This document shows, piece by piece, positions 40,642 through 59,513 of a DNA stretch of 64,000 bases; position 1 is the stretch's first letter; each line of letters starts with the position of its first letter. This DNA is from an uncultured SAR116 cluster alpha proteobacterium. GTDB taxonomy: Bacteria > Pseudomonadota > Alphaproteobacteria > Puniceispirillales > Puniceispirillaceae. The translations under genes and the position numbers were made by a program. The DNA lies in NCBI GenBank assembly GCA_902622515.1, contig CACNQE010000001.1, positions 1 through 64,000 on the forward strand. Direction: 5' to 3'. The notes beneath the pieces were generated by a model, which was not told the origin of the DNA, made no database searches, and saw only the letters and a list, made by a program, of their open reading frames with translations.

Positions 40642-41496
40642 ATGCTTACCAAAGTTGTTTTAAGGCCGACAATATATGTCGTTTTCTTTTTGCTAATTTT
40701 TGTAGTAAAACCTGCAATTTCAAAATGCCCAAACATTAAGGATATAAAAATAGTTAAAAGTTTTGGTATTGAAATTTGTGCCATGCCAAACGTAGCGGAT
40801 AAGTACCTAAACCACGCCAAAAAAATTATGGATAAATTAGTTGATTATAATAATGACGGGGAGGTGGATAATCAAAAAGTAATAGACAAATTAATTAGTA
40901 CAGGAAGCGTTTTTGCAGTTTTCAGAAACAGCAAAGATGAGCGTAATTTTGAAAAATATTTTTATTCAGACGAAGTTATGGAAGAAATGAAAGATATTAT
41001 GGAGCAAAACGGATGGGATTTTGAAAGTGACGAAGATAAAATCACTTCCGTGTTTGAACCAAAATATGGAACATTTTTATCTGTATTTACTGAAGAAATG
41101 AACTTTAATATTAAAGATTGGGACCCAACTATAGAAGAAGCTCTGCATCTTATCACACATATGGGTTATGCGCAGGCATATCCTAATATTTTTGGGCAAC
41201 AAAGGAACTCTAAAATAGCAAAGTTAATGGATGAGGCAAGAGGAGGATATTTTGAGAAGGCTCAACTACGTTATCCTTCCGATGCATACTACACCCATGA
41301 TGATGTTACTTGCACATATTCTTGCCAAATCACAGAATTTACTTATTGGGCTATTACCTCCCTAAGAGGACAACAAGCGGATAGAGGTAAAGCGATAAGT
41401 GATGAATGGCAATTAAACACTCCTGAAAAAATAAGAAGCAAGGCGCCTAAGCTTGAAAAGCTTCTAACAAAAGATGAATATAAGATATTTTTATGA
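40642..41496 (+). CDS. Secreted protein with an EF-hand-like loop, unknown
   Basis: A signal or anchor helix (about residues 8-27) leads to a soluble domain. DYNNDGEVD (68-76) fits the first nine positions of a calcium-binding EF-hand loop. EEALHLITHMGYAQAYP (about 171-187) is a conserved-looking helix with Glu and two His that might bind metal, though it is not HExxH. CTYSC near residue 231 may be a disulfide. It looks like a member of an uncharacterised exported family. Confidence 0.6.
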   Translation: MLTKVVLRPTIYVVFFLLIFVVKPAISKCPNIKDIKIVKSFGIEICAMPNVADKYLNHAKKIMDKLVDYNNDGEVDNQKVIDKLISTGSVFAVFRNSKDERNFEKYFYSDEVMEEMKDIMEQNGWDFESDEDKITSVFEPKYGTFLSVFTEEMNFNIKDWDPTIEEALHLITHMGYAQAYPNIFGQQRNSKIAKLMDEARGGYFEKAQLRYPSDAYYTHDDVTCTYSCQITEFTYWAITSLRGQQADRGKAISDEWQLNTPEKIRSKAPKLEKLLTKDEYKIFL

Positions 41497-41504
41497 TATT
41501 TTAA

Positions 41505-43334
41505 TCACTTGAGTCCTGCTTTTCGTACTCCGTCCAATAAAATATTTTTGACATCTTGATTCACAGCTGGGACCACTTTCTCGTAATCCTCTAATGTTTT
41601 AATTTCTGGTCTATTTTCCTGATATTTGGAAAGCCATAGTTTGCTCTCATCAATCTTACCTTCATGTGCTAGTATAATAGCTTTAAAAGCGTGAAATCTG
41701 CTATGATCATTCTCTCGCATACTTCTATCAACTGATTGGTGAGCACTAACCCAATCATTCTTTCCTAAATGACAGAATAAGAGCATAATTTCTAAAAAAG
41801 GCACCGTTTTCGGGTTGGTTTCATATGCCCTATTCAGTAACTCAATTGAATTATCATAATCACACTCATTTAAATGAAGCATCCCTTTTGCTGATAATGA
41901 CCTCGGATGATGGGGGTTTATTTCAACTGCTTTGTAAACGAATTCCCGATATTTTACTTCATCATCTGATATTCGATACAAATATGCCATGTTCATTACA
42001 GAATCAGGATTGTTGGGGTCAAGGCTATAACTTATTTCAGCAACCTTTTTGAACCTTGTTTCATTTTCCTCCCGGTCATGCTGAAGAGAGGATTCTAACC
42101 TTAGAAAAAATAAGCTCGACGCAAGAACATTATACGCATCGGTTAATTTTTTATTTAGTGCAATCGATTTCTCTGCATGTTCTATTGCTTCGTAAATATA
42201 TTTGATTTTTTCTTCAACAATTTTAGCCTCGCTATTTTTGTCATAAGAGTTTAATGCATGAAGATATTCGTCCCATGCACTAAAAATCTCCGGTTTTTTA
42301 TTGTGTAACGTATTTTGTTCATTAATGATTATTGCCGGTTGAGCTAGAGCAGAAACTTTTTGTGATACTTCATCTTGCAATTCAAATATATCGTCTAAAA
42401 TTCTATCCCACGTTTGAGACCAAATTTGAATATCTTCTAATGTATCTGTAAGTTTTACCGATATTCTTACTTTATTTCCACTTTTTCGAATGCTGCCCTG
42501 TACTAAATAATTAGCGTTCAAGTCATTCGCTATATCTTTGGTTGCTTCTTTATTGTCCTTATATTTCAAAACTGAATTTAATGAAACAACTGGAAATGTC
42601 TTTGATTTTGAAAAATAAGAGATAGTATCCTCTGTTATCCCATCCGCAAAAAACTCTTGTTCGGGATCGTTACTCAGATTCTTGAAAGGCAAAACGGCAA
42701 TGGTTGGTGGCACGCTACCTTCTTTTATTTTTGCTGCTGCAGCTGCAGCAATAGTTTCATCAATGTTAGAACGCTTTTCTAAATCAGGAACATTAAGATC
42801 AAATGCATGGACGATAGTATTTTTTACTTTTTGTTCACCCAAATCATTAAAAAGAAACTCGGTTTTTTTATTTACGAAGTCCATTATACTTTTAGATAAA
42901 CAAACTCCACCAGACTGAGAAAGAGCCTCTAATCTCGCTGCAACATTAACCCCGTCGCCATAAAGATTTTCTCCCTCTACTATGACATCTCCCATATTAA
43001 TACCAACTCTAAAATCTATTTTTGAGTCATTAGATAAAGAATCATTTCTTTCTTTAATAAGCTTCTGAAATTCACTCGCGCAAACGACTGCAGAAACAGC
43101 ACTCTGAAATTCCGCTAAAACGGAATCTCCAGCAGTATTGAAAATTCTTCCACCATGCTCTGAAAATAAATTGTCTAATATATCTCTGCAGGCTCTAAAG
43201 CTCTTTAATGTTTCATCCTCGTTAATCTCCATTAACTTACTGAAGCCAACTACGTCAGTAACGAATATCACCGCAATTTTACGTTCTATAACTTGATTGA
43301 AACTATTTTCTAATTTAACGACATTTTCATTCAT
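41505..43334 (-). CDS. Class III adenylate/guanylate cyclase with TolB-like and TPR regions
   Basis: Residues about 15-185 form a class III cyclase domain: FVTDVVGFSKLM and GDSVLAEF give the two metal Asp, with NMGDVIVEGENLYGDGVNVAARLE after them. A TolB-N-like segment follows (TIAVLPFKNLSNDPEQEFFADGIT, about 213-330), then TPR helices (about 350-560). This architecture is common in alphaproteobacteria and probably makes cAMP in response to an unknown cue. Convergent with the EF-hand-like protein gene. Confidence 0.87.
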   Translation of the reverse strand: MNENVVKLENSFNQVIERKIAVIFVTDVVGFSKLMEINEDETLKSFRACRDILDNLFSEHGGRIFNTAGDSVLAEFQSAVSAVVCASEFQKLIKERNDSLSNDSKIDFRVGINMGDVIVEGENLYGDGVNVAARLEALSQSGGVCLSKSIMDFVNKKTEFLFNDLGEQKVKNTIVHAFDLNVPDLEKRSNIDETIAAAAAAKIKEGSVPPTIAVLPFKNLSNDPEQEFFADGITEDTISYFSKSKTFPVVSLNSVLKYKDNKEATKDIANDLNANYLVQGSIRKSGNKVRISVKLTDTLEDIQIWSQTWDRILDDIFELQDEVSQKVSALAQPAIIINEQNTLHNKKPEIFSAWDEYLHALNSYDKNSEAKIVEEKIKYIYEAIEHAEKSIALNKKLTDAYNVLASSLFFLRLESSLQHDREENETRFKKVAEISYSLDPNNPDSVMNMAYLYRISDDEVKYREFVYKAVEINPHHPRSLSAKGMLHLNECDYDNSIELLNRAYETNPKTVPFLEIMLLFCHLGKNDWVSAHQSVDRSMRENDHSRFHAFKAIILAHEGKIDESKLWLSKYQENRPEIKTLEDYEKVVPAVNQDVKNILLDGVRKAGLK

Positions 43335-43603
43335 AGAAACTTGGAGACTTTTATTTATTTTTTTAATTATAGTAGCATAACTATATAAATTATTATCTTA
43401 TTATCAGATTATAATATTTTTTAATTGATTTAAAATAAAAATATCTTATTTACACAGTTTGTAAATATATCTCTTTAATTTACAACCAACGATAACGTAT
43501 TTAAAAAAGAGTGAAAATATTTTGCGTTCAATTTGAATTACATACAGTAAAAGTTACCACTCAATACCCACTTATATTCTAAGTGTATTATAAGGGAGTA
43601 CCT

Positions 43604-43771
43604 ATGACGGGTTTTATTTTCATAATTTTTTATTACACAAGTCGACCGATATTTATTAATTTTGGTCTTTCAGATCGTTTACGTTTTTTTGCGGCTCTAA
43701 TACTTGGTTTATTATTTGAAACGACCATCTATTTAATAACTGGTAACACAGGATTTAAATTAATTGCCTGA
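43604..43771 (+). CDS. Small two-helix membrane protein
   Basis: ATG 43604 follows AAGGGAG at ideal spacing and opens 55 codons with two hydrophobic segments (FIFIIFYYTS and FFAALILGLLFETTIYLI). A GTG seven codons upstream is possible but lacks a ribosome site. Unknown family. Confidence 0.5.
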   Translation: MTGFIFIIFYYTSRPIFINFGLSDRLRFFAALILGLLFETTIYLITGNTGFKLIA

Positions 43772-43894
43772 AAGGTATTTAGTTTGATAAAATATAAAGA
43801 GGTTGAGATAATTCAAAAAAATAACAAATGAATTTACGCGCTTGGTGATAAGTGAAATTTTTTTGCGCAGAATTTGTTTAAAACGTCTCTAATG

Positions 43895-44233
43895 TTAATT
43901 AACTGTTTTTCCTGTTGATATATTCACAGCAGAATTTTGTGCTTCTCGCTCAAAGCTATAAATACATACCCCTGAATATTTTTCTTCTTTGTAAATAAAG
44001 GATTTTTTAATATCTGAAAGTAGGCCGGAAACATCATTCTCAAATTTTTTGAGCCGTGTCGCCTCGTCAAACCTAACACAAACAGATAATTCTCCAGATT
44101 TTCCAATCGTTATTTGGATCCCAAGATAGTCATAATGAGAAATTTTAGAGCCTAATATTTCAGAGAAATGACTAGCTGCTATTTTTGCCTCCGCAGTACT
44201 TGGAAATTTTAAATTTATGATTGAGGAAAACAT
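43895..44233 (-). CDS. Small protein coupled to the GAF gene, unknown
   Basis: The 112 residues look like an alpha/beta domain (INLKFPSTAEAKIAASHFSEIL, then GIQITIGKSGELSVCVRF) with no recognised motif. Its ATG overlaps the stop of the GAF gene (TAATG), which implies translational coupling and probably joint function. Confidence 0.55.
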   Translation of the reverse strand: MFSSIINLKFPSTAEAKIAASHFSEILGSKISHYDYLGIQITIGKSGELSVCVRFDEATRLKKFENDVSGLLSDIKKSFIYKEEKYSGVCIYSFEREAQNSAVNISTGKTVN

Positions 44234-45063
44234 TAAAAATCTCCATCAATCTGTTTTAGTAATTCATCTACATTAATTCGTGAGTCAACTTCGCTTAAAA
44301 TTGTACCACTATATGGCTTTTCAAATTGACCTAACTCTAGAGCAATTTTTTGAGCTAATTTTGATAGCTGATAACCGCTAACAGTTTTAGTGGATGAACG
44401 CTCAACTAAACCCAATTTTATTAACTCTGCGCTAATATTTTCGTCGAAAACTCCTGTGTCTGCAAAGTCAACAAATTCTATGATGTTTTCAACAGTACAA
44501 TCAGGTGCAATTTCTTTTATAAGAAGAAGAATGTTCTTAGTTTTTTCAATAATTAAAGATTTTTGAGCCTGCAGGTTAATTATTTGATGACAAATATTTA
44601 TTGTAAGATTCTTCATTAATCTTATTTGCTCTTTACTTAGCTGTTTGGGTTGAAAGTCCATCACGCATAAAGTTCCAAGTATCAATCCTTCATTTGTGAT
44701 AAGGGGAAAGCCAGCATAGAAGATTAAATTTGGATATCCCGTAACGATAGACATTGAGGAGAATCGTTCATCTTTGGTTAAGTCTGTGACGATAGTAGGT
44801 TCAGGATCAAGTAATGCAAATTGGCAAATTGATTCTTTACGTGGCAACGGTTTTGAAAAATCTGTCTCCATCCCAGAACTGCTCAATGAATGTTGTGTAT
44901 CTTGATCTATTATGTTTACAAAACTAGAAGTACAATTAGTGATGACTTTTGCAACTTCATTGAAAATCGTGAACTGTTTATGCCTATCCGCATTAAGAAC
45001 GCCAGTAGCTAACAGTTTATTAACTCGAGCTTTTTCATTTTTTGGTAATTTAGCTATTCGCAT
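44233..45063 (-). CDS. GAF-domain sensory protein
   Basis: A 276-residue protein whose residues about 25-165 form a GAF domain of the kind found in bacterial diguanylate cyclases and histidine kinases (FVNIIDQDTQHSLSS, FYAGFPLITNEGLILGTLCVMD). A helical C-terminal part (about 185-255) has winged-helix-like character but no catalytic domain. It may be a stand-alone sensor. ATG 45063 is preferred to the TTG three codons earlier. Confidence 0.78.
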   Translation of the reverse strand: MRIAKLPKNEKARVNKLLATGVLNADRHKQFTIFNEVAKVITNCTSSFVNIIDQDTQHSLSSSGMETDFSKPLPRKESICQFALLDPEPTIVTDLTKDERFSSMSIVTGYPNLIFYAGFPLITNEGLILGTLCVMDFQPKQLSKEQIRLMKNLTINICHQIINLQAQKSLIIEKTKNILLLIKEIAPDCTVENIIEFVDFADTGVFDENISAELIKLGLVERSSTKTVSGYQLSKLAQKIALELGQFEKPYSGTILSEVDSRINVDELLKQIDGDF

Positions 45064-45446
45064 AGATATCAAGCTTAAAACATTAGAACAAGAAATTTAA
45101 AAATTTTATTTTCATTCTAACATATATTGCAAAGGAGTGAAATTATTTAGGGTTGTTAAAATATCTATTCCAAAAAATGCTCAAGACTTTAGCAACTATT
45201 TTATTTTTATTGAATAATCATATTCATCGTATGAGGGAGAAAAGATTAATCTTTAATGTAATTGCTAAACTGTTTTTCAAAACGCCTCTGCAAAAATTTT
45301 GTGTTTATATCATATTGTCACCAAACTGAAATAGGGGAGTCAATGTGTTATCTTTGTAAATTAATCTTAATCAGAAATATTTGGAGGATAATTTGAAGGG
45401 AAAAGTATGTATGTAATAAAAAATAACTATTTTGCAATTAGTCACG
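45064..45446. other. Intergenic region with only tiny open frames
   Basis: Short plus-strand frames at about 45346 (17 codons after GGGGAG) and 45231 (32 codons) are too short and unremarkable to call. I see no hairpin terminator or repeat. Confidence 0.4.
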
Positions 45447-46547
45447 TCAACAACCCGAAGCCAAATACATCCAATACGAACAGCCTGAATCAGAAATTAA
45501 CCAATCTTCAAAAGCTGCAGCTAAGACAAGTAAAGCAAGTACACCTATAAGTGCGACTAATATTAACACAGTAACAACCAAATTCGAGAGGGCAGCTCGA
45601 AGCGACACTTGATTAAAATACATTTCGCATATGATAATTAGGCCTGTTGGGAATACTGGCGCGAATATAAATACCATAACAGGACTAAGAAAAAGCTGGT
45701 CGGAAAATAGTAAACCAACACAAAAGAGAAAATATGCTACTAAAGAATAAAGAAATAATAAAACCTTGTAACCAGAGTGATTTATGAGCAGCTTATTGGT
45801 ATTGGGGTTCCAATAAATTTCTCGTTCATCCCTGTAATGGTTTCGGGAACGTTGTCTAATATTGTATTGCTGTTCATCAAAGGTAAATGTCCAACCCTCA
45901 GTAAGGAGTCCTTTGGTTGCTGCGCCCTCAGTTACTTTGTCGAACTCTACTATATTGTTAGGTCTTGCAAAAACTTTTACCCAACCTTTTTTAAAATATG
46001 CCGTTCTAAATCTCCAGAACGCTAACAGACTGTACAGTAATGAGTATAAAAACATAATGTTGAAAGCTTGATCATAATTGTGACTGCTGGATAGATAAAA
46101 CACAAATGACAACCCTATAAAAATAACATTTCCTGCTATTTCGTTGCCTAAATCATTTCCACCCAAGTTAAAGCTGTTAACGGTCACTATTTTTGACTGT
46201 TCTTGGTTGAGTTCAGGAATATAATCTTCAGGAATATTAATCGTATTGACAACTTTTTTATCTGAAGGACTTTTTGCTTTCTCATTTCCTGCTAAAATAT
46301 CATCATTTTTTGATAAGTTTCTCTTTCTATCTGCAAGAATTGAAATGAAAAATGGTGCTGATATTATAACTGCGAAAGCTAACATCGATAAAATTAATGT
46401 GGTCTCAAATCCCATAAAAGTCATAATAATGGAGGGAAGCACAAACAAAAAACAAATGATGCCAATAATTCTTCCCTTAACTATAAATTTTTTATAATCC
46501 TCGTCTTCTCCCATAGCATACCCATGAACCGTTTTATTATGTGTCAT
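45447..46547 (-). CDS. Polytopic membrane protein, unknown
   Basis: The 366 residues have about seven or eight hydrophobic helices: two near 28-72, two near 135-170, and three or four after 255. A soluble domain of about 80 residues (185-260) lies between them (GWTFTFDEQQYNIRQRSRNHY). No family recognised. It lies just left of the 46810 attachment core and is therefore outside the tRNA-Ser island as drawn. Confidence 0.6.
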   Translation of the reverse strand: MTHNKTVHGYAMGEDEDYKKFIVKGRIIGIICFLFVLPSIIMTFMGFETTLILSMLAFAVIISAPFFISILADRKRNLSKNDDILAGNEKAKSPSDKKVVNTINIPEDYIPELNQEQSKIVTVNSFNLGGNDLGNEIAGNVIFIGLSFVFYLSSSHNYDQAFNIMFLYSLLYSLLAFWRFRTAYFKKGWVKVFARPNNIVEFDKVTEGAATKGLLTEGWTFTFDEQQYNIRQRSRNHYRDEREIYWNPNTNKLLINHSGYKVLLFLYSLVAYFLFCVGLLFSDQLFLSPVMVFIFAPVFPTGLIIICEMYFNQVSLRAALSNLVVTVLILVALIGVLALLVLAAAFEDWLISDSGCSYWMYLASGC

Positions 46548-46809: not shown

Positions 46810-46824
46810 TAAGTGGCGGAGGAG
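46810..46824. other. Left attachment core (att) of the tRNA-Ser island
   Basis: TAAGTGGCGGAGGAG is an exact 15-bp copy of 59420-59434, where it spans the 3' end of tRNA-Ser. CCCTCCGTAA, directly after it, also resembles the tRNA 5' flank, perhaps by chance. In tRNA integrations the distal copy carries only the 3' tip, as here. Confidence 0.8.
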
Positions 46825-46837
46825 CCCTCCGTAATAC

Positions 46838-46913
46838 CTCATCGTAAATACCTGTATTAATTACACTATATTTCAACCTTTGAAATCAACCCATAAATTT
46901 ATCTATAAATTAC
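46838..46913 (+). promoter_or_regulatory. Duplicated leader, copy 1: promoter of the GH5 gene
   Basis: About 75 bp align with 48369-48443, sharing CCTTTGAAATCAA (46877-46889) and CCATAAAT. It holds a strong sigma70-type promoter: TTGAAA (46880-46885), 18-bp spacer, TATAAA (46904-46909), 40 bp before ATG 46950. Identity extends well beyond the hexamers, so shared regulation or a recent duplication is likely. Confidence 0.6.
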
Positions 46914-46949: not shown

Positions 46950-48332
46950 ATGATGGTGTTAAAAATGTTGAGAATAGCCTCGTGTGGTAAACTCTACCAC
47001 TTTGTTATAGTTGCTCTATTTTTTAATATGGCATCGATCAGCCTATCTTCAGCGAACAACAATAACAATGAACACTCTATTAAAATGCCAGTTGAAGGTT
47101 TAGAAGGTGTTGGTATTAACACCATAGCGTTGTGGTCAGGTGCAACAAGGATATCTTCTGCTAAACAGTTTATTGATCATATTCGACCAATGGAAGATTT
47201 TGGGTTCAGCCACATTGTTTTAATTTCCTGCATAGACTGGATTATAGAACTTTCCTGCAAGAAGGGGATTAACAAAGCACGTATTATGGAATTTGTGAAG
47301 TCTGCTGTAAATGAAACGAACCTTCATATTGTCTTGTCTTTAAAAGCATATGATCAAAAAAAAATTGACGGAAAAAATACCTCAAAATTTCAGACTGCGC
47401 TCGAGAGTGATCCAGCTGTAGAAATAAAGTTTGTTGATGCTTGGAAAAGCATAGCACTTGAACTACAACATATCCCAAAAGAAAGACTAAGTTTTAATAT
47501 TCTAAATGAACCTGAGTTTGAATTGCCGAAGGTATCTAATCGCAAACGGGCAAATTGGTTAAATATTGCATCAAAAACTATCGAAGGCATAAGAGACGTG
47601 TCTTCTGACCGTGTTATAATTGTAGAAGGTATAGGAAAATCTCTTTTTGCCAGTAGAAAGAAGTCCAAGTATAAATATACTTCAATTGAACAACTCATAA
47701 GGCCTTTGAATTATTCGAATTTAATCTATGGCTTTCATAACTATGAACCTAATGAATTTAATCAGCAAGCAAGCTATCGTAGTGGCGTATTTGGAAAACC
47801 TCATACTAAATTGGTGACTACCTCTGTAAAAAAAGATGCTGCAAGGCTTCTTAAATGGTCAGTTAAACATAAAGTACCAGTAATTTTATCTGAAACTGGG
47901 TGTATTGGTTATTACGATGGCAAAACAGAAGGACCGAAGAATCCAGACGATTGTGGCAAATTTGCATCTGATGTCTACAGTGCATATGTTGAAAATGGTA
48001 TTCCTATAACTTGGTGGGCTCTAGAAAAAGAAAAAACTATCTATTTACGGGATAGACCAACTGACCAACATTGGTTACCTAGAAAATTAATTCCAGACCC
48101 TTCGCTTTTCGCAGGATTAAAATTAAACAACCCCTTAAAAGAAGTAGCAAAAGAGGCCCAAGAACTCCTAAAAAAAGAGATAGAATACAGCGACCTACCG
48201 TCAGATACAAAAATGATTTGTACTAATGCTTTGGGAGAGTGGAATAGAGACAAATTAGAAGGAGTATGGATTTCTAGGGCGCAAGAATTGGGACTGCTCG
48301 AGCACCACTGTCGTGATATAATTAAGCGTTAA
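46950..48332 (+). CDS. Secreted GH5-family glycoside hydrolase
   Basis: A signal peptide ends near SLSSA-NN (about residue 35). The TIM-barrel catalytic domain shows the GH5 acid/base Glu in NILNEPEF (E187), GFHNYEP, the nucleophile Glu in ILSETGC (E315) and WWALE. This fits endo-beta-glucanase or mannanase-like enzymes; the true substrate is unknown. A C-terminal tail of about 80 residues has three Cys and may be an add-on domain. First gene inside the island's left end, driven by a leader shared with the next gene. Confidence 0.8.
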   Translation: MMVLKMLRIASCGKLYHFVIVALFFNMASISLSSANNNNNEHSIKMPVEGLEGVGINTIALWSGATRISSAKQFIDHIRPMEDFGFSHIVLISCIDWIIELSCKKGINKARIMEFVKSAVNETNLHIVLSLKAYDQKKIDGKNTSKFQTALESDPAVEIKFVDAWKSIALELQHIPKERLSFNILNEPEFELPKVSNRKRANWLNIASKTIEGIRDVSSDRVIIVEGIGKSLFASRKKSKYKYTSIEQLIRPLNYSNLIYGFHNYEPNEFNQQASYRSGVFGKPHTKLVTTSVKKDAARLLKWSVKHKVPVILSETGCIGYYDGKTEGPKNPDDCGKFASDVYSAYVENGIPITWWALEKEKTIYLRDRPTDQHWLPRKLIPDPSLFAGLKLNNPLKEVAKEAQELLKKEIEYSDLPSDTKMICTNALGEWNRDKLEGVWISRAQELGLLEHHCRDIIKR

Positions 48333-48368: not shown

Positions 48369-48443
48369 CTCATTGTAAATCTATGATTTATTGAACTATA
48401 TTTTAGCCTTTGAAATCAAACCATAAATCTTCCTATAATTTAA
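48369..48443 (+). promoter_or_regulatory. Duplicated leader, copy 2: promoter of the envelope operon
   Basis: Counterpart of 46838-46913 with one indel. Contains TTGAAA (48410-48415), an 18-bp spacer and a consensus TATAAT (48434-48439), 37 bp before ATG 48476. Its position makes it the likely promoter for the whole 48476-54808 operon and suggests co-regulation with the GH5 gene. Confidence 0.6.
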
Positions 48444-48475: not shown

Positions 48476-49189
48476 ATGAAACCTAGATACGTTATTATCA
48501 TCAGCTTAATAATTATATTAAGCTTAGTTCCTCATGTACGAATGGCATTTAGTATCGGGACTGGTTTTGGATTGCCAAAAATCCAAGAAACTATAAATCA
48601 GATCCAATCTAGAGCAATTAATAAAAAGATTAATGATGAGGATAAGCGTTTCCTTTCCAGACTGTACCCAACATTGTCTGTTGGCGCTTTCTTTACATTC
48701 ATATTACCTGAAAGCTCAAGACTAACATGGCATTATTTATATGGAGAAGGGAGCAAAACTTCTATTAATGAAAAGCTTTTTATAGAAAGTTCTAGAGTTA
48801 TTAAGAGAATGGACAAGCTAAAATCAGCAGATAAAAAAATTTGCACTGTTGATTTCACTCAAGAAAGTGACGAGTTTGATATGGGGCACATCAAGCCATT
48901 AGATGCCCATTTTGCCCTTTATTTTGGGACTATAACGTTGGACAGACTAAATAAAGATACTATTCAGTGGACATTTAATATGCCTTGGAAATTTCCAACT
49001 TACGAAAGTTTATACGCAAAATATGGAAGTTATTACAGAGAACAACCTCATCTTCCTAACGCATTGTCTTTATTGGGTTTAGGAAAACCGTTGGTATTAC
49101 CAAATGGGCTTGGTGGAGAGCTGGAACTACAAGGGTTAGCAAAATCATTTGATACCGTTACTGTGTGGGAGGAAAATCATAAATGCTAG
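48476..49189 (+). CDS. Exported protein, first gene of the envelope operon
   Basis: The 237 residues begin with a signal peptide or anchor (about 5-26). They continue as a soluble domain with FTFILPESSRLTWHYLYGEG, DEFDMGHIKPLDAHFALYFG and ELELQGLAKSF; two Cys lie at KKICTVD and the C-terminal residue. I recognise no family. Its 3' end overlaps the next gene by 7 bp, which ties it to the operon. Probably periplasmic or lipid-proximal. Confidence 0.6.
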   Translation: MKPRYVIIISLIIILSLVPHVRMAFSIGTGFGLPKIQETINQIQSRAINKKINDEDKRFLSRLYPTLSVGAFFTFILPESSRLTWHYLYGEGSKTSINEKLFIESSRVIKRMDKLKSADKKICTVDFTQESDEFDMGHIKPLDAHFALYFGTITLDRLNKDTIQWTFNMPWKFPTYESLYAKYGSYYREQPHLPNALSLLGLGKPLVLPNGLGGELELQGLAKSFDTVTVWEENHKC

Positions 49190-49743
49190 AATCTGATGCA
49201 GTGAAAAAAAATGTATATACCATTTTATTAAGCCTAATTATTTTAGGGTTTTTTATAATACACAATACAGAGCTTCTAGCGCATGGTGGCAGGACCAATT
49301 CCCAGGGATGTCATAATAATACTAAAACAGGTGATTATCACTGTCATAATTCAGGTTCATCAAAAGATACTTCATCATCTTCTAGCAACCAAAGTATGGG
49401 TTTTGGAGAAAATCAGTTAAATCAAATGTTAGCCGCCTCGCTTGGTGGCAAAACTGAAGTTAGCATCCCATTTAAAACTGTTGGCTCTGGTATAGCAAGC
49501 GAGGTGAGAATTGATATAATAACTGATGAATATGTTATAGAAGGAGGGCTTGATAAACGGTCCAGCCTTGACAGTATTCAGCAAGCACTTTTTGCGTCCT
49601 CTCAGACGGGAAAGAAACCCGCTGTAGCTATCTATGATACAGACTCAACATGGGGAATCTACGAGCATCGAATTTGGGTTGCGGCAAAAGCCATTAATGT
49701 TCATTATATTTGGATATCTGACGGAAAAATATACTACAAATAA
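49183..49743 (+). CDS. Exported YHYH-motif protein
   Basis: After a membrane helix or signal peptide (about residues 12-31) comes the short HGGRTNSQGCHNNTKTG-DYHCH motif, known from many secreted bacterial proteins and sometimes called YHYH. It is rich in His and Cys and may bind metal. A Ser-rich linker then leads to a beta-rich domain (about 80-186). GGAGGAAAA precedes the ATG, which lies inside the previous gene. Function unknown; periplasmic location likely. Confidence 0.65.
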   Translation: MLESDAVKKNVYTILLSLIILGFFIIHNTELLAHGGRTNSQGCHNNTKTGDYHCHNSGSSKDTSSSSSNQSMGFGENQLNQMLAASLGGKTEVSIPFKTVGSGIASEVRIDIITDEYVIEGGLDKRSSLDSIQQALFASSQTGKKPAVAIYDTDSTWGIYEHRIWVAAKAINVHYIWISDGKIYYK

Positions 49744-49754
49744 GAGTTAGAAGC

Positions 49755-51683
49755 ATGGAACAAATAATTGTAAATTTTATTCAAAATGAAAATAATATTA
49801 TTCAGTTTGCTCTACTAATATTTAGTTTTGCGCTAATTTCATTAGGGGCATTATTAATTTTCTCGCTTGCAAGCTCGATTGTTGAATTATTATTAAGCCC
49901 AACTTTAAAACTTGCGAGTAATTTTTTAGATAAAGTTGTTCTAAAAGTTTCACAAATTTCAGATAATTATAGCAAGAAAGTCAGACGTTGGGCTGCAAAT
50001 TATACTCGGCGCACTATGCCTCTAGGTGCAATACATGTAATAAATAACTTATCTTTTGGGGCACAACAATTCGAAAATTTTAGACAAGATGCACTCTCTA
50101 AAATTGATAATGTTCAACAAATTTTTAATCAGATTTCTTCCAAAACAAATCAAATTGGCGAAGCGCAACTTAATCAAAATTCAAGCAGTCAAGACACATC
50201 TTTTGTGGTTAAAGAGATAAAAAGCTCCGTTGAAGAGTTAGCTGACCTCTCTGATAAATTCAATGATATTGCTGTCCCTGAACTGGTAGTAAAAGAAGAG
50301 GATCATTCCATTAAACGCCAAGGTTATGCAAACTTAATTTTTGTGCCCTTGCTTGTGGCAATTGTATTTTTAAATACCTACATGTTGCATCTATTTTTCC
50401 AAGACCTTGGCTTAGACGAACGTGTTTTAGGATATTCTATACCGATTCAAACATCACATATAATTGCATTCTTATTTTCGCTGTTGGAGGCTGGAATAGG
50501 TTTTTATTTTGCTTCTCAAGACACTTACGGTGTTAAGGAGAGTTTTGTTACAAAATTGATAAGTTCAATGTGTATTTTAACTCTTTTATTTTTAGCGTTT
50601 ATAGAATTTTTTATTTACTTGCAGCTAAGCGTTTACAGCACCACAGGCATTCCATTGGGCGAATGGTTAGAGGAGGAAATAGGGTTTATCGATAGAATTA
50701 TAGTTGGATGGATGTCAATTTTTGGTCCAGCAATAGTGATGGGTTTGTTCATTTTTGGTCACCAGAGCACAAAAGCATATTTTTCGATTATGAAATCTAC
50801 AGATTTAGAACGATTTAGTGAACAGCTAGATAAAATTGATATGCGTCTTGGATTTTCATCTGAACGAGTTGAGCTAATTAATTCCAAGTTTGCTGATTTA
50901 AAATCCAAAATTACCTCCTTGCCAAATGAATTAGAGGTTGCGGATGTTAGAGATTTTACGCAAAAAGACATAAAATCTTTTATTGAGGAATTAAAATTAA
51001 TAGCAAAATCCCTAGAAAAAGTTGACTCTTTTCAGGAAACCGAGCCAACGTTTGAAAATGTAAAACAAAGGCTACCATCAAATGAGCAAAGAGCTAATTT
51101 GACAGTTGATTTCAGTTTGGGGCTGTTATCACTGATAGGCCTTCTAGGCTCTACGTATTTCCTCACTGAATTATTTAGTAATATAAAAGGGTTGCCTGAT
51201 AATTTCAGAGAGCAGCTTTTTATACCTTCAATTGCTGTATCTGGAATTATATTTGTGTGCGGTTATTTGTTTAATCAATCACAAAATGTTTTTATTCTCT
51301 CAAAATTGCCGATAATCAAAACGTCTCCCGCGCAACTATTCATTAAAAGCACATCATTAATCGTTCTTGGGTTGATATCTTCTCTTTTAATATGGATGAT
51401 CTACACTGCAAAAATTTCTGGAGATTTGGGTTTTAATTTAATCGCTGTTTTCCTTTTGTTTTCAATGTTTGTGATTGGTTTACAAGCAAAAACCTCTTCT
51501 TTTGGTTTGTATTTTGGTATTGTTCAGCTTCTAAACTATCTGTTTATTTTTATTTTAATCTGTTCAAATATTATTTTAAGTTTTATTCGAATTTGTCTAG
51601 ACATGGTAATTGCTATAATTCATTCTTTTTCTAGCCTTTGGTTGAAGTTTATTCCAGAAAAAATACAAAGGGTTTTCTCATGA
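49755..51683 (+). CDS. Large polytopic membrane protein of the ExbB/VWA operon
   Basis: The 642 residues have about ten or eleven membrane helices: one near 15-42, four between 190 and 335, and five or six after 450. Two soluble helical regions (about 60-180 and 345-440) look coiled-coil prone. No transporter or channel motif is recognised. It starts 11 nt after the YHYH gene, and its stop overlaps the VWA gene start (ATGA). It could be the membrane platform or output channel of the complex. Confidence 0.7.
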   Translation: MEQIIVNFIQNENNIIQFALLIFSFALISLGALLIFSLASSIVELLLSPTLKLASNFLDKVVLKVSQISDNYSKKVRRWAANYTRRTMPLGAIHVINNLSFGAQQFENFRQDALSKIDNVQQIFNQISSKTNQIGEAQLNQNSSSQDTSFVVKEIKSSVEELADLSDKFNDIAVPELVVKEEDHSIKRQGYANLIFVPLLVAIVFLNTYMLHLFFQDLGLDERVLGYSIPIQTSHIIAFLFSLLEAGIGFYFASQDTYGVKESFVTKLISSMCILTLLFLAFIEFFIYLQLSVYSTTGIPLGEWLEEEIGFIDRIIVGWMSIFGPAIVMGLFIFGHQSTKAYFSIMKSTDLERFSEQLDKIDMRLGFSSERVELINSKFADLKSKITSLPNELEVADVRDFTQKDIKSFIEELKLIAKSLEKVDSFQETEPTFENVKQRLPSNEQRANLTVDFSLGLLSLIGLLGSTYFLTELFSNIKGLPDNFREQLFIPSIAVSGIIFVCGYLFNQSQNVFILSKLPIIKTSPAQLFIKSTSLIVLGLISSLLIWMIYTAKISGDLGFNLIAVFLLFSMFVIGLQAKTSSFGLYFGIVQLLNYLFIFILICSNIILSFIRICLDMVIAIIHSFSSLWLKFIPEKIQRVFS

Positions 51684-52414
51684 AAAAAGGTTACTTTGCT
51701 TCGATGCTTTTATTATGCTTTTTTAGCATTGTTAAAATATCGTATTCAGCTCAGATACAATCTTCCATATATCTTTTAGTAGATGTGTCTGGTTCCTATC
51801 AGTACCTAAAAGACGAAGACCCAGAATTGCAGAAAAAAATATACAGAGAGGCTTTCTTATTGATTGAAGAGGCATCTTCACTTTTGCCAAAGAATATCTC
51901 GTTTAAAACACTAAAAATAAATGAATTTAGCTCTCTAAGTGAGGTGATATGTGAAGCTAAAATTGAGCGGAAAAGGCTTTTGGGAAATAATAAAAAGTCT
52001 AGGGAGGTATCTTTCACTCAGAAACAAATTTTTGATGAGTACTTAGAGCCAATATGCTTACCGATTTTAATGAAGTCTAAAACTGCACTAGCAACAGATA
52101 TTGAAGGGGCTATTAATTTATCAGCTGAATTAGCTAAAGCAGAAACTGGCGGACCAATATTTTTAATGATTTTATCTGATTTTTTTGAGTATAAATCAGA
52201 CCAACTTCCTAGCTTTAAACTGGAGTTAGATAATTTCAAGGTAGCGTTAATTTACAGAAATATCGTAAATGATACTAGTGGTCAGCAGATTACACTATCA
52301 AAAGAGCAAGTGCTTAAATGGCAGAAAACTATTTCGGATGCTGGTGCTGACAAGGTGTTTATAGCCGATGAGCGTTCTGATTATCAGAGTAAAGCGTTAA
52401 AAGAACTCTTCTGA
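51680..52414 (+). CDS. Periplasmic von Willebrand factor A-domain protein
   Basis: A signal peptide (MKKGYFASMLLLCFFSIVKISYSAQ) precedes a VWA domain with the MIDAS motif DVSGS (35-39), a later Thr in ALATDIEGA and Asp in LMILSDFFEY, so metal-dependent ligand binding is plausible. The start ATG 51680 overlaps the previous stop (ATGA); a longer frame from 51638 is unlikely. VWA proteins often act as adaptors beside AAA or rotary machines. Here it lies between the polytopic protein and the ExbB-like channel. Confidence 0.78.
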   Translation: MKKGYFASMLLLCFFSIVKISYSAQIQSSIYLLVDVSGSYQYLKDEDPELQKKIYREAFLLIEEASSLLPKNISFKTLKINEFSSLSEVICEAKIERKRLLGNNKKSREVSFTQKQIFDEYLEPICLPILMKSKTALATDIEGAINLSAELAKAETGGPIFLMILSDFFEYKSDQLPSFKLELDNFKVALIYRNIVNDTSGQQITLSKEQVLKWQKTISDAGADKVFIADERSDYQSKALKELF

Positions 52415-52427
52415 GATTGGTTACAAA

Positions 52428-53600
52428 ATGGCTGAGGAAAAAAAATCTAAACGAACACGCCCTAAGCGAGTTCCGCTCCTAAGAGCATCTGCGAAACAAA
52501 CTTCGCCAAAATACCATGAAAAGGGCGCAGAATTAGATGATAAAGTCCTTTCTCTTAACTCAGACGAAAGTCCTGAAACTGAAGAGATAACTAGCTCTAA
52601 AAAGAGGGTATCAACTGAGACTATCATTAAATCTCCAGATACAAGGGAGCCTCTTAATTTAACAAACTCGAGAAGAAAACTTCAACTTGCTTTTTCAGGT
52701 TTTTTTATTTTAGGAGTTTTAATCATTTTTCTTTTCCAAGGTAATTTCCTCGGAACTCCTCCAATAGTTGCTATGATACTCTATCTTCTGTACGGACGGA
52801 CAATAGCAAAAACTCGAACGATGAAGTCCGTATTTGCCGATAGTATGTATTATATGGGTTTTCTGTTTACCTTTGTATCCTTAATCGTATCAATTTCACC
52901 GCTGAGTAGAGCTGAACTAGAGCTTGATTTTATTATAGGTCAAATGGGCACTGCACTTTTAACAACCGTGTTTGGCATGGTGGTTAGGATTTTATCAAGT
53001 CATTTTGATGCTTTAGAAGAGAATGTTGAGGATGCTCTTAGAGAAGAGATGTCGGCAATGGCAGCTCAAATCAATAATTTGTCCCAAGAATTTGTTAGTT
53101 CTTTGCAAAAACAATTAGAATTATCTGAAAAGTTATCACAATCTTCCATACAGCAATCAGAATTGCTCAATCAGGCAATTGAAAAACTATCTAGCATAAA
53201 TAACTCTGAAAATGATCTAGCTGAATTTTCTAAAAAAATGCGTGAATTATCCTCTCATTTGGAGGATGTAGCAAGAAACACATCAGTACAAGGTCGGGTT
53301 TTTGTTGAATTTGGTGAAGCCATAACAAGAGTGAATGATGCTTTGAATTCATCCTCCGAGAAATTTGAGACTTCAAGGACTAAAATAGAGCAACTTGATG
53401 ATATGATTTTTGATTTAGAAAAACTCGTGTCCAATGCTGGTGAAGATACTTCAAAACTGACAAATATAGTTGATGGCATTACGTCAAAAGCAGGAGACTT
53501 AGATCGCTCCTTTAATGAGGCGCAACAGACATCGCTTCAAATGGAATCTGAAATGAATAAACGTTTATCTAACATTATTAACATTGTCAGAAACAAATGA
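52428..53600 (+). CDS. ExbB/TolQ/MotA-like channel subunit with coiled-coil tail
   Basis: A 390-residue protein: basic cytoplasmic start (1-80), helices near 86-104 and 110-123, then MYYMGFLFTFVSLI (140-153) and IGQMGTALLTTVFGMVV (170-186). The last two match TM3 and TM4 of ExbB, TolQ and MotA, including the ion-path Thr (T148, T179/T180). The tail from about 195 to 390 is one long coiled coil, as in ZorA-type channels and unlike ExbB. It forms the stator-like pentamer in the family. The next gene overlaps by 4 bp and encodes its expected single-span partner. Confidence 0.78.
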   Translation: MAEEKKSKRTRPKRVPLLRASAKQTSPKYHEKGAELDDKVLSLNSDESPETEEITSSKKRVSTETIIKSPDTREPLNLTNSRRKLQLAFSGFFILGVLIIFLFQGNFLGTPPIVAMILYLLYGRTIAKTRTMKSVFADSMYYMGFLFTFVSLIVSISPLSRAELELDFIIGQMGTALLTTVFGMVVRILSSHFDALEENVEDALREEMSAMAAQINNLSQEFVSSLQKQLELSEKLSQSSIQQSELLNQAIEKLSSINNSENDLAEFSKKMRELSSHLEDVARNTSVQGRVFVEFGEAITRVNDALNSSSEKFETSRTKIEQLDDMIFDLEKLVSNAGEDTSKLTNIVDGITSKAGDLDRSFNEAQQTSLQMESEMNKRLSNIINIVRNK

Positions 53601-54346
53601 TATTAGCTAATTCTCGTTCGAAATCTTCATCTGATGTTATAGGAACCTCTTTTACAGAAATCCTTCTTATTCTTCTTTTTGTGTTGCTAATATTTAACTA
53701 TTCTAACCTTGCCAAGATAAACATATATGAACAAGAAAAAATAAGTCTAAATAACCAAATCAGTGAGTTAAAAGAAATAATTAAGAAAAAAAATGAAGAA
53801 ATATCAGAACTCAAAATTCAAATACGTAAATTAGAGCGAGAATTAGAAATTTTAAAGTCCTATGCTATCCAGGGAAAATTGAATACTGATTTAATTGAGG
53901 AAGTCGTTGAGAGCAATAGTAGACTGACTGAGGAGAATAGGCGGCTTTTAGAAGAGTTAGACAGATTAGGAACGAAACTAAAACAAGCAGGAATTTCAAA
54001 TGAATTTCCTAATTGTGAGATAAATGGCAAAAAGATTAAACAACTTGCTATGATTAAAGCTGGGATAAATGAATATTCGATCAGTTGGAATTGGAATTCT
54101 TCAGATGAAGACTGGATAAAAGATAATATGCCATTTTTGCTTAATTATGACGTTACTAATAAACTATCTATCCAACAATTCCAAGATTTAGGTTTAAAAA
54201 TTTATAATTGGGGGTTAGAGCAGACGCCAAAATGTAGATTTAGGGCAGGTTACCAACCCTCAGATAGCCTTTTAAACAGTTCAGCAACACAATATAAAAA
54301 GATGCTGAGTATTGCAGGTAGGTATTTTTATGCACAGGGACTGTGA
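53597..54346 (+). CDS. ExbD/MotB-like single-span subunit with coiled coil
   Basis: GTSFTEILLILLFVLLIF (16-33) aligns with the ExbD/TolR helix pattern F-I-D-V-x-L-V-L-L-I-x-F, but the essential Asp is Glu (E21). A long coiled coil follows (about 40-135), then a globular C-terminal domain beginning PNCEINGKKIKQL with ISWNWNSSDEDWI and FRAGYQPSD. The NxxLSxxRA pattern of OmpA-like peptidoglycan-binding domains is absent, so what it grips is unknown. ATGA overlap with the channel gene supports strict stoichiometry. Confidence 0.75.
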   Translation: MILANSRSKSSSDVIGTSFTEILLILLFVLLIFNYSNLAKINIYEQEKISLNNQISELKEIIKKKNEEISELKIQIRKLERELEILKSYAIQGKLNTDLIEEVVESNSRLTEENRRLLEELDRLGTKLKQAGISNEFPNCEINGKKIKQLAMIKAGINEYSISWNWNSSDEDWIKDNMPFLLNYDVTNKLSIQQFQDLGLKIYNWGLEQTPKCRFRAGYQPSDSLLNSSATQYKKMLSIAGRYFYAQGL

Positions 54347-54349
54347 TTG

Positions 54350-54808
54350 ATGAAGTCCTCTTTAAACTACACGGTGCAAATTGAACTTGAAAAACTTGAA
54401 AGACGAGTGGTTCGCAAAAATATTAATAACTTAAATCAAGAGATATTCGAAGCAATTTCAGGAGCAAAAAAAAGGCAAAGAATTTCCAGAGAGCAGCAAA
54501 GTTATTTCAGGAAACTCTATGAAGAGGAACAGAAAAGCTTACGAAAAAGACAATTAGTGATCACAGTAATAAGTTACTTCCTAGCCGCATCATTTATGTT
54601 ATTTATTTCGATTTTTTCTTACTTTTTAATAAGAGATTATCTTGCTAACAACTCGATGGAATTTTCGTTTATGGAAAGTGTTTTTAATTGGTTTTTTAAT
54701 TGTTATTTCTTCATTGAGAGCCTCTATTCAAATTACTTTTTGGCTGATTTTTCTGGAAGAAAATATTTTGACAAAGGATTAGTTGATAATCTTAATTGGG
54801 GTTTGTAA
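54350..54808 (+). CDS. Small membrane protein ending the envelope operon
   Basis: The 152 residues have a basic coiled-coil N-terminal half (LEKLERRVVRKNINNLNQE, RKLYEEEQKSLRKRQ) and two hydrophobic helices (about 65-90 and 102-125). It directly follows the ExbD-like gene; TTG 54347 and ATG 54350 are adjacent possible starts. Unknown family; probably an accessory inner-membrane subunit. Confidence 0.6.
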   Translation: MKSSLNYTVQIELEKLERRVVRKNINNLNQEIFEAISGAKKRQRISREQQSYFRKLYEEEQKSLRKRQLVITVISYFLAASFMLFISIFSYFLIRDYLANNSMEFSFMESVFNWFFNCYFFIESLYSNYFLADFSGRKYFDKGLVDNLNWGL

Positions 54809-55420: not shown

Positions 55421-56032
55421 TTAACAAGGAATACCAATTCCTATGTCTAAGTGAAAGTGATCACTATGCAAACTATTTGAGTCTGGTGTCAAAACATTGG
55501 TAAAATAGAAGCAAGCTTCTTTTGCCGCTGTCCTTAATTTTTTTCCTTTAATACCGCTGTCATTCCAGTGATTTTTAACTACTGCTTCGTCAATTTTAGA
55601 TATATCAATGGCCAAACCGAAACTATGTTCACTCATTACGCCAAAACTTCTCATCTTTCTGCAATTTAGAGTGCCCATATGAGTTATTTTTTTTGCTTCT
55701 ATTTTTTTTGCCCAGTCAGCAAACTTTACAGCAGCTGGACAACTTAGTATCACTGACGAAGATAAAGAAGTGGAGGGCAATTCGCCAAGTTTTACTGCAT
55801 TTTTTATAGGACACATATCATCTCCTTGGTTTCCTAGCGCCAGAAATGAGACACCTCTTTTTTTTAATTTTAAAAGACAGTTTTCACCACCTCCGTTAAG
55901 AAGTAAGGGCCTTATTTCATTATATACATCAAAAACAAATGTTTTATTATAGTTGTACAATGCAGTAGCTATTACAGTGCCAAAAATTAAAAACCCAAAT
56001 CCTAAAGCAGTAATGTATTTTAGAAATTTCAT
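55421..56032 (-). CDS. Extensin-like, M15-type zinc peptidase
   Basis: A membrane-anchored N-terminus (helix about 9-27) precedes an extensin-like C-terminal domain (Pfam Extensin-like_C): CLLKLKKRGV, SCPAAVKFADW, the metal motif SEHSFGLAIDIS and HSDHFHLDIG. The H(x6)D and HxxH arrangement matches D-Ala-D-Ala or L,D-type M15 peptidases acting on peptidoglycan. Several Cys suggest a disulfide-stabilised periplasmic enzyme. It could locally open the cell wall for the island's envelope complex. Confidence 0.82.
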   Translation of the reverse strand: MKFLKYITALGFGFLIFGTVIATALYNYNKTFVFDVYNEIRPLLLNGGGENCLLKLKKRGVSFLALGNQGDDMCPIKNAVKLGELPSTSLSSSVILSCPAAVKFADWAKKIEAKKITHMGTLNCRKMRSFGVMSEHSFGLAIDISKIDEAVVKNHWNDSGIKGKKLRTAAKEACFYFTNVLTPDSNSLHSDHFHLDIGIGIPC

Positions 56033-58100: not shown

Positions 58101-59273
58101 TCAATTAACGTTTGAGGTTACATAATCTGCCCATTTTTGCATGAGTTCCCGCCTTCTCTCAAATAGCTCTGAGCGTAGATAAGCGCCTTCTACCCTTGAG
58201 TTAAGCTGATGCGCCAAACAAAACTCGATTACATTTGTGCTATAATCTGTATTTTCTTCTGCCCAATTACGAAAAGATGAGCGAAAGCCATGCACTGTTG
58301 CTTGAAGTTCTGGAAAGTTTCGTCTTATAAGTAACCGCATGGTATCAAGAGACATCGCTCGTCGGTTGTATCTTCCAGGAAAAATGATCTCCTTATTATG
58401 TGTTTTTAAAATTACCTCTAATATCTTTATTGCTTGTTGAGATAATGGCACCTTGTGGGCTTTTCGGGCTTTCATGCGATTGGCAGGGATACGCCAGACC
58501 TGCTTAGATGAATCATATTCACTTCTCGTAGCTAAAAGTGTCTCCTTCGTTCGCGCTACAGTAAGAATGGTGAATTGAAGAGCCAAAGAGCTTAGTGTAT
58601 TTATGAGCAACAGCTTGCGGTAGAAGTCTGGTAGAAGTGCGTAATCAAGGGAAGGGTGGTGTTTTATGGTATGATTGGGCCTGAATACCATCTCAAGGTT
58701 ATTAAGCCAAACGGCAGGGTTATCGCCTTTATACCAGCCTTGTACAATCGCATAGCCAAATATTTTGCCTATTCTTCCCATAATTTTCTTTGCAGTTTCT
58801 GTTTTATTATCCCAAATAGGCTCCAATGTCTGGATGATATCGTCACGTGTAATCGCGGCTAACGGCTTTTTGTCTAGCACTGGATAGACATAGGTTTGAA
58901 GGCTGTTGCGCCAGAGTGTTTCCTGTTTTGGGCATGTCCATTCGTTTCTTTTTGATTGAATGACGCGCTCTGCAACGAGTGAGAAGCGGTATTTATCTTC
59001 TATTCTTCTTTTTTCGGCTGTTTGTTTTCTGAGTGTAAATGGGTCTTCCCCAAGCGCAAGCTGTCCTTTTAACACATCTCGTTTTTGACGTGCCAGTGAT
59101 AGGGAGACGAGTGGATAGCTTCCAAGCCCTAACTCATGTTTGCTGCCATCTTTCATATATTTAAATGTCCAGGAGCCACTTCCTGGTGACGAAAGACGAA
59201 GATACAGACCTCTGCCATCACAGACAGATTTAAATAAAGGGAGTTTAGTAATTCTAGTGGTAGTGAGTTTCAT
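58101..59273 (-). CDS. P4-type tyrosine integrase of the island
   Basis: A 390-residue tyrosine recombinase. An N-terminal DUF4102-type arm-binding domain (KLTTTRITKLPLFKSVCDGRG, GLYLRLSSPGSGSW) is followed by a core-binding and a catalytic domain with R241 (LTVARTKE), K274 (HKVPLS), H328 and R331 (HGFRSSF), H355 (LAHQ) and Y365 (GAYLRS). All catalytic residues are present, so the enzyme looks active. ATG 59273 has AAAGGA upstream; an ATG 48 nt earlier is less likely. It integrates at tRNA 3' ends, matching the tRNA-Ser 150 bp away. Confidence 0.92.
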   Translation of the reverse strand: MKLTTTRITKLPLFKSVCDGRGLYLRLSSPGSGSWTFKYMKDGSKHELGLGSYPLVSLSLARQKRDVLKGQLALGEDPFTLRKQTAEKRRIEDKYRFSLVAERVIQSKRNEWTCPKQETLWRNSLQTYVYPVLDKKPLAAITRDDIIQTLEPIWDNKTETAKKIMGRIGKIFGYAIVQGWYKGDNPAVWLNNLEMVFRPNHTIKHHPSLDYALLPDFYRKLLLINTLSSLALQFTILTVARTKETLLATRSEYDSSKQVWRIPANRMKARKAHKVPLSQQAIKILEVILKTHNKEIIFPGRYNRRAMSLDTMRLLIRRNFPELQATVHGFRSSFRNWAEENTDYSTNVIEFCLAHQLNSRVEGAYLRSELFERRRELMQKWADYVTSNVN

Positions 59274-59288
59274 GTCGTAAATCCTTTC

Positions 59289-59309
59289 AACCCATAAATG
59301 AACCCATAA
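59289..59309. repeat. Direct repeats AACCCATAA (putative integrase arm sites)
   Basis: AACCCATAA occurs at 59289-59297 and 59301-59309, about 110-130 bp from the right core. The same AACCCATAAAT occurs at 46888-46898, 64 bp from the left core. Short direct repeats on both sides of a core are typical arm-type sites. The left copy also lies inside a promoter spacer, so an alternative explanation exists. Confidence 0.4.
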
Positions 59310-59419
59310 CTGGGTGTGCAATTGATTGATTTACGATGAGATATTATGAGCAGTTAGGAATCAATAAACATTAGGAAAACTGATGCATAATGCGTCATAG
59401 TGAACAGTTTTAATTAGGT

Positions 59420-59434
59420 TAAGTGGCGGAGGAG
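59420..59434. other. Right attachment core (att), at the tRNA-Ser 3' end
   Basis: Exact 15-bp match to 46810-46824. Eleven of the fifteen bases (59424-59434) belong to the tRNA-Ser acceptor 3' strand, including CCA. Confidence 0.8.
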
Positions 59435-59513
59435 GTGGGATTCGAACCCACGATGGGCTTTCACCCATGCCGGTTTTCAAGACCGGTGCATTCAACCACT
59501 CTGCCACCCCTCC
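59424..59513 (-). tRNA. tRNA-Ser(UGA)
   Basis: A complete 90-nt class II tRNA on the minus strand. It has acceptor GGAGGGG, the anticodon arm CCGGT-CTTGAAA-ACCGG giving anticodon TGA, a long variable arm, a T arm with GGTTCGAATCC, and an encoded CCA. Its 3' end is the insertion target of the neighbouring island and is restored by the element. Confidence 0.95.

Follow-up and report, generated by a model that had tools for sequence, protein, structure and literature searches.

A run of seven closely spaced genes in a SAR116 alphaproteobacterium raises three questions: whether it encodes an ion-driven machine of the cell envelope, which of its genes belong together, and what such a machine would be used for. 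Ion motors of the 5:2 type power flagella, gliding, type 9 secretion, the Ton and Tol systems and Zorya. An earlier note, made from the sequence alone, had proposed that the run encodes a motor of this kind. The window, by which we mean the whole stretch of 64,000 nucleotides that was analysed (contig CACNQE010000001.1, positions 1 to 64,000), belongs to a SAR116 genome of 2.1 Mb in 39 contigs.

Organization of the gene run

Seven open reading frames were found on the forward strand between positions 48476 and 54808, all overlapping or separated by no more than 13 bases, as the earlier note had described. (The genes and their products are denoted below by the first position of the gene.) The first gene (48476-49189) codes for an exported protein of 237 amino acids, which is probably specific to this island; no relative of it was found in any locus examined. 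The second (49183-49743) encodes an exported protein of 186 amino acids carrying a YHYH module (match to the YHYH_alt model, E 9.4e-12). The next four genes encode a polytopic coiled-coil membrane protein of 642 amino acids (49755-51683), a VWA protein of 244 amino acids predicted to be exported or anchored by its N-terminus (51680-52414), an ExbB/ZorA-like channel of 390 amino acids (52428-53600) and an ExbD/ZorB-like single-span protein of 249 amino acids, the axle (53597-54346). The run ends with a small membrane protein of 153 amino acids (54347-54808), whose gene starts with TTG. The likeliest start of the VWA gene is the ATG at 51680, which forms an ATGA overlap with the stop codon of 49755; an upstream TTG at 51638 was disfavoured. 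Two topologies had to be revised. Hydropathy indicated about nine spans in 49755, previously given 10-11 helices, and one clear span in the 54347 product, previously given two.

A conserved core of four genes

To define the conserved part of the run, a profile of the membrane part of the channel was used. It detected 242 relatives in 84,980 genomes, and the best 80 of the 242 were used. Thirty-two clean loci, with two more from SAR116, supplied families of neighbouring genes, and these families were then sought in a set of 90 loci. All four genes, in the order polytopic protein, VWA protein, channel, axle, were present in 80 of the 90 loci and in 36 of 42 after removal of near-duplicates; as the families had been defined as neighbours of the channel, these counts test mutual conservation and are not an independent survey. 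The matches to the core families had E values mostly between 1e-20 and 1e-220, and one further VWA gene was found by tblastn (L038). Some of the incomplete loci are contig ends. Two loci, L021 and L022, contain the channel and the axle genes and no VWA or polytopic genes. The conserved module thus consists of four genes, 49755, 51680, 52428 and 53597, which occur together more often than by chance.

The co-occurrence that the earlier note had envisaged for all seven families was found for these four and did not extend to 48476, 49183 and 54347. The YHYH gene 49183 is found repeatedly in SAR116: it lies close to the module in the window, G126 and G066 and at a distance from it in other genomes. 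A small membrane gene following the axle gene recurs in SAR116 relatives, by position only. An Extensin-like/M15-type peptidase-like gene downstream of the run (55421-56032, reverse strand) is a neighbour, not part of the core; in SAR116 islands it accompanies the YHYH gene. At L184 (genome G066), and also at L175 and L176, YHYH, Extensin-like and small genes were seen to recur as a travelling set.

The hosts of the best 80 relatives include Alpha-, Beta- and Gammaproteobacteria, Campylobacterales/Helicobacteraceae, Rhodothermales, Flavobacteriaceae, Gemmatimonadetes, Vicinamibacterales and Thermoanaerobaculia. Occurrence is rare and patchy: a phylum-wide sample of 398 genomes contained the module in eight, the window's own included (E <=3.3e-17), and the VWA profile had no match in nine of nine genomes sampled from the same genus. 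In a separate search, many relatives with E near 1e-4 proved to be coiled-coil matches in one paralogue and were set aside. Copies are located on islands and plasmids, among others in rhizobia, Paracoccus and marine bacteria. No copy of the polytopic protein was found in phages, E. coli genomes or viral contigs; one viral contig encodes a distant relative of the channel. Two versions of the module that are distant from each other (L038 and L086) are present in a single Rhodospirillales genome, HCUG1430-8. A full four-gene module is also present in the SAR116 genome G066 (L184, 2548-7326), on an island with a cytosine methylase gene and with a YHYH gene adjacent.

The channel and the axle

The channel protein 52428 has its membrane helices between residues 78 and 192, followed by a cytoplasmic coiled-coil tail that extends to residue 389. 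The long tail had been likened to that of ZorA, and this description held. The single-chain model was predicted with pLDDT of about 80-94 over most of the helices 78-192. Superposition by VIA-align on ZorA of type II (8vvi_C, cryo-EM) gave 2.2 Å over 91 of 99 residues with Z 9.5, a value lower than the roughly 13 that can be reached by chance with long-helix models, so the weight of the match lies in the rmsd and the coverage of the membrane domain. Unrelated helical chains gave similar Z values on the tail. Foldseek used alone returned no match with E under 0.001 for this model; PomA appeared at rank 31.

In 32 relatives the residues G96, D138, Y141, Y142, G144, L146, T148, L152, T180, G183 and R187 are invariant. 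When the family was compared with a profile of SAR116 MotA-like proteins (hhalign, E 0.009), all eleven columns fell on the helices that form the ion path in MotA-type channels. Comparisons with alignments of TolQ and ZorA, containing few sequences each, gave E 0.03 and 0.07, respectively, neither of them informative. The Pfam model MotA_ExbB gave 52428 a score of 12.8 bits, below its cut-off of 22.9, a shortfall that reflects the sensitivity of one model and is not a structural trait of the motor class; five of the 32 relatives matched it weakly (best E 0.001). Resemblance to MotA/TolQ/ExbB at the level of sequence is thus marginal. Because 52428 has no significant Pfam match, its assignment rests on the conserved positions, the profile comparison and the fold. 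With Thr148 and Thr180 invariant and the membrane fold matching ZorA II, the proposal of an ExbB/MotA-like channel that retains the ion-path threonine was supported.

In the axle protein 53597, Glu21 lies within the single span and is followed by a coiled coil. An acidic residue at the right place in the span had been predicted, and it was found to be Glu in all 84 axle relatives read, never Asp. The C-terminus of 53597 is a P-x-C...CRF...FY domain, also present in other members, that corresponds to no Pfam family. There is no OmpA domain in the window's protein, as had been noted earlier; the statement does not apply to the rhizobial-type relatives, since 54 of the 84 axles carry an OmpA-type motif, and axles of this type match ZorB in PADLOC with E values down to 2e-25. 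These 54 form one clade on the tree. The C-terminal type changes twice on the tree, and because one of the changes falls on a truncated sequence (L095), the OmpA-type axle has in effect a single origin.

Matches of the window's proteins to ZorA, LmuB and JetC were confined to coiled coil and were given little meaning, and those to apolipoproteins and SMC proteins were likewise coiled coil only.

The VWA and the polytopic protein

The earlier suggestion of a periplasmic VWA protein was supported by the predicted structure of 51680 (pLDDT 79, pTM 0.73), for which Foldseek and VIA-align found VWA/I domains and other related VWA folds, Z reaching 13.6. MIDAS-like residues are present as D35-x-S-x-S, Ser139 and Asp167; Asp35 and Asp167 are invariant among the relatives and Ser139 nearly so. 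A search of 16 relatives with the VWA_2 profile, meant to provide VWA proteins as a yardstick, found none. The membrane span of the VWA protein contains an SHLS motif in none of 27 members, and no Asp or Glu in these members.

The polytopic protein 49755 has conserved positions across 24 relatives and belongs to no family in Pfam or PADLOC. Neither 49755 nor 51680 has a relative of solved structure detectable by sequence. On the tree, 49755 of the window lies on a long branch with L081, its exact placement being unsure. At L081 (11861-17413), the locus of this closest relative, the operon is followed by a gene for a protein of 1850 amino acids with an RHS-like start.

The island at tRNA-Ser

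The run is part of a variable region next to a tRNA-Ser(tga) gene (59424-59513, reverse strand), an integration hotspot adjoined by the island's tyrosine integrase gene (58101-59321, reverse strand). A genome of the same genus (G005, L197) has genes flanking tRNA-Ser that are 87-98% identical to those of the window, the equivalent of the window gene whose end is at 41496 sits 124 bases from the tRNA gene, and the stretch from 41.5 to 59.3 kb is missing. A second genome of the genus carries different cargo at the same tRNA-Ser. The integrase, the tRNA gene and the missing insert in G005 supported the view that the run is borne on a tRNA-linked island.

Positions 46810-46824 repeat the end of the tRNA-Ser gene exactly over 15 bp. 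This repeat is regarded as only a candidate att site (attL), because related short repeats occur intergenically in this genus, and it does not fix the left end of the island. Short related repeats of about 34 bp, 91% identical, lie between genes at 46815-46898 and 48369-48438 and also close to tRNA-Ser in another genome of the genus; a small repeat of mobile or regulatory nature may be involved. Encoded in the left part of the variable region (41505-46547) are a membrane protein, a guanylate-cyclase/TPR protein and a GAF protein, none of which is present at the tRNA-Ser site of G005. Directly upstream of the run, and still within the variable region, lies a gene for an exported GH5 (cellulase-family) protein (46950-48332), whose last 100 residues are similar to another protein, one encoded beside the same tRNA-Ser in G003.

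Exported nucleases beside the module

Genes for nucleases of the SNase type were counted in 25 genomes carrying the module, which contain 47 of them in total. In 11 of the 25 an exported SNase is encoded within 2 kb of the module, whereas 0.09 would be expected. The SNase genes, whose products have signal-like N-termini, adjoin the module on either side and on either strand. Mapped on the tree of the polytopic protein, the presence of SNase changes at least 11 times and its arrangement at least 15 times, so the pairing is not one inherited layout. An exported SNase is also encoded beside the module on annotated plasmids of Microvirga, Rhizobium and Sinorhizobium; plasmid pRL11 of Rhizobium johnstonii 3841 carries a complete copy of the module (RL_RS31080-RL_RS31095) with an adjacent SNase gene (RL_RS31100). 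At L114 a GmrSD_C/HNH-type protein is encoded beside the module, and there is no SNase. In HCUG1430-8, an SNase was detected beside only one of the two module versions.

The window contains no SNase. The YHYH module that forms the N-terminal part of 49183 is, in other alphaproteobacteria, fused to SNase (L158, 1051-1668) or Excalibur (L155, 1432-1752), which suggests that exported proteins of nuclease-like type make general use of YHYH as a module. YHYH itself has been predicted to be a metal-dependent hydrolase (PMC7824862); the domain described by the YHYH_alt model that 49183 matches may not be the same as the YHYH of that study. The C-terminal domain of 49183 is conserved in SAR116 islands (R-[IV]-D-x-x-T-[DN]-x-Y-V-I-E-G-G...). 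Compared with PD-(D/E)XK nucleases, the spacing of its motifs departs from the classical pattern. We regard 49183 as a candidate exported hydrolase or nuclease; a nuclease function for its C-terminal domain is a guess. The earlier statement that a nuclease partner is absent is not supported as it stands: in relatives, genes for an exported SNase or for a GmrSD_C/HNH-type protein repeatedly adjoin the module, and the window's YHYH protein contains a module that elsewhere is fused to SNase or Excalibur domains.

Neighbouring defence genes

Reading of the loci, without a background rate, revealed six with defence genes near the module or its channel and axle genes: a complete Zorya I (L021), an Hhe/PDC-S37 (Hhe-like) gene (L025), AbiLi/AriA-like genes (L048), a type IIG gene (L067), Cas10 (L100) and a cytosine methylase (L184). 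These neighbours are suggestive of a role in defence. Most rhizobial copies lack such a neighbour, and beside most of those of the Rhizobium tropici type (L064 with its 25 near-duplicates) neither a defence gene nor a nuclease gene was recognised.

In two SAR116 single cells (L021, 7522-16113, and L022) an operon of channel, axle and small membrane protein stands back to back with Zorya I, of which ZorA-D are complete in L021. The operon is followed there by a cassette of small genes, including genes for ADP-ribosylglycohydrolase-like and trypsin-like exported proteins.

Relation to known ion motors

The module shares with TolQR, ExbBD and MotAB the channel and axle architecture, the conserved threonine and the acidic residue in the axle span. 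It differs from them by its long tail, by Glu in place of Asp, by a Pfam score below the cut-off, and by having no TolA, TonB or flagellar partner.

The likeness to Zorya comprises the membrane fold of the channel, the long cytoplasmic coiled-coil tail, the single-span axle, the location on islands with defence genes and, in the rhizobial-type relatives, the OmpA domain. The Zorya motor is given as ZorA5B2 in PMC11890865 and by Hu et al. 2025 (cited in PMC12505986), and the ion carrier of ZorB is Asp (PMC11890865), whereas that predicted for the module is Glu. The module also lacks ZorC/D/E/F/G (none of the five was found by PADLOC among the window's genes), has OmpA in one clade only, adds VWA and polytopic partners that occur in no Zorya type of PMC11890865, and has exported nucleases nearby in contrast to the cytoplasmic nucleases of Zorya. 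Membership of the window's operon in Zorya was rejected on account of the Glu, the absence of OmpA here and the absence of ZorC/D/E.

The closest published idea to the VWA protein of the module is that of the vWA force transducers encoded beside tolQR-like genes, for which an action at the outer membrane has been proposed (PMC12204202). In both cases a periplasmic vWA protein is encoded with a 5:2-type motor. The TolA-like type of these transducers has the SHLS motif in its vWA helix, and the transpore-helix type has an acidic vWA span and no ExbD/TolR, whereas the module has an ExbD-like gene; because 51680 has neither the SHLS motif nor an acidic span residue, it belongs to neither type. The module also differs in its polytopic coiled-coil partner, and no TPR gene was recognised in it. 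No description of this gene set was found in the literature searched, which included few subscription papers and preprints. Machines of this class are known; new to our knowledge are the gene set, the Glu rule, the axle domain and the pairing with nucleases.

A possible mechanism and its alternatives

The membrane fold, the threonines and the glutamate make it highly probable that the module is an ion motor of the 5:2 type. Five copies of 52428 would form a pentamer in the membrane with their cytoplasmic coiled-coil tails bundled, and two copies of 53597 would serve as the axle, Glu21 acting as the ion carrier facing a ring of threonines. Flow of protons or sodium ions would turn the axle together with its periplasmic coiled coil. 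The VWA protein, binding a ligand through its MIDAS-like site, and the polytopic protein could be the sensing or transmitting part. The machine would take effect at the envelope, often by way of an exported nuclease that is encoded by a gene of its own and acts on incoming phage or foreign DNA; this role would fall to SNase in many relatives and perhaps to the YHYH protein in the window.

Defence against phage or foreign DNA is, in our estimate, the most probable use of such an envelope motor, at about even odds. A more specific version can be proposed tentatively: the module would represent a new family of periplasmic defence systems, in which a Glu-type motor acts through a VWA sensor and a polytopic partner to trigger or feed an exported nuclease, and phage or foreign DNA is destroyed during entry, unlike in Zorya with its cytoplasmic nucleases. 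Equally tentative is the explanation that the module has no role in defence and is a housekeeping or niche machine of the envelope for tethering, secretion, adhesion or motility, comparable to Tol-Pal, AglRQS or the vWA transducers. Many rhizobial copies do stand alone, some copies lie beside genes related to the cell wall (PBP1A on pRL11; an SH3 protein), the OmpA type probably anchors to peptidoglycan, and vWA transducers beside tolQR-like genes provide a precedent with a proposed action at the outer membrane (PMC12204202). A housekeeping function is harder to reconcile with the rare and patchy occurrence (8/398 genomes; no VWA gene in nine same-genus genomes), with the location on islands and plasmids and with the Zorya and other defence genes adjoining the module in several genomes.

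The same exported SNases, which adjoin the module in many arrangements in hosts that include marine and soil bacteria, could instead serve the use of extracellular DNA, as a nutrient or in processing of the matrix: the SNase would cut the DNA and the motor would power its uptake, as Ton does for other substrates. This we consider unlikely, as the loci read showed no recognisable outer-membrane receptor, ComEC or nucleotide transporter beside the module, and the island or plasmid location and the defence neighbours also argue against it. Less likely still is a diverged subtype of Zorya, in which ZorAB homologues would recruit an unlinked or unrecognised cytoplasmic nuclease. The match of 52428 to the ZorA II fold, its tail, the match of OmpA-type axles to ZorB and the back-to-back arrangement with Zorya I in two genomes are in its favour, but every member has Glu rather than Asp, the window has no ZorC/D/E, and the VWA and polytopic partners occur in no Zorya type described in PMC11890865.

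If the reading of the module as an envelope ion motor is right, it would represent a branch of the 5:2 motors that uses another ion-carrying residue, has a fixed pair of VWA and polytopic proteins, has been paired repeatedly with exported nucleases and is borne on islands and plasmids. The complete copy on pRL11 of R. johnstonii 3841, a tractable laboratory strain, would make the questions of motor, ion and defence accessible to experiment.
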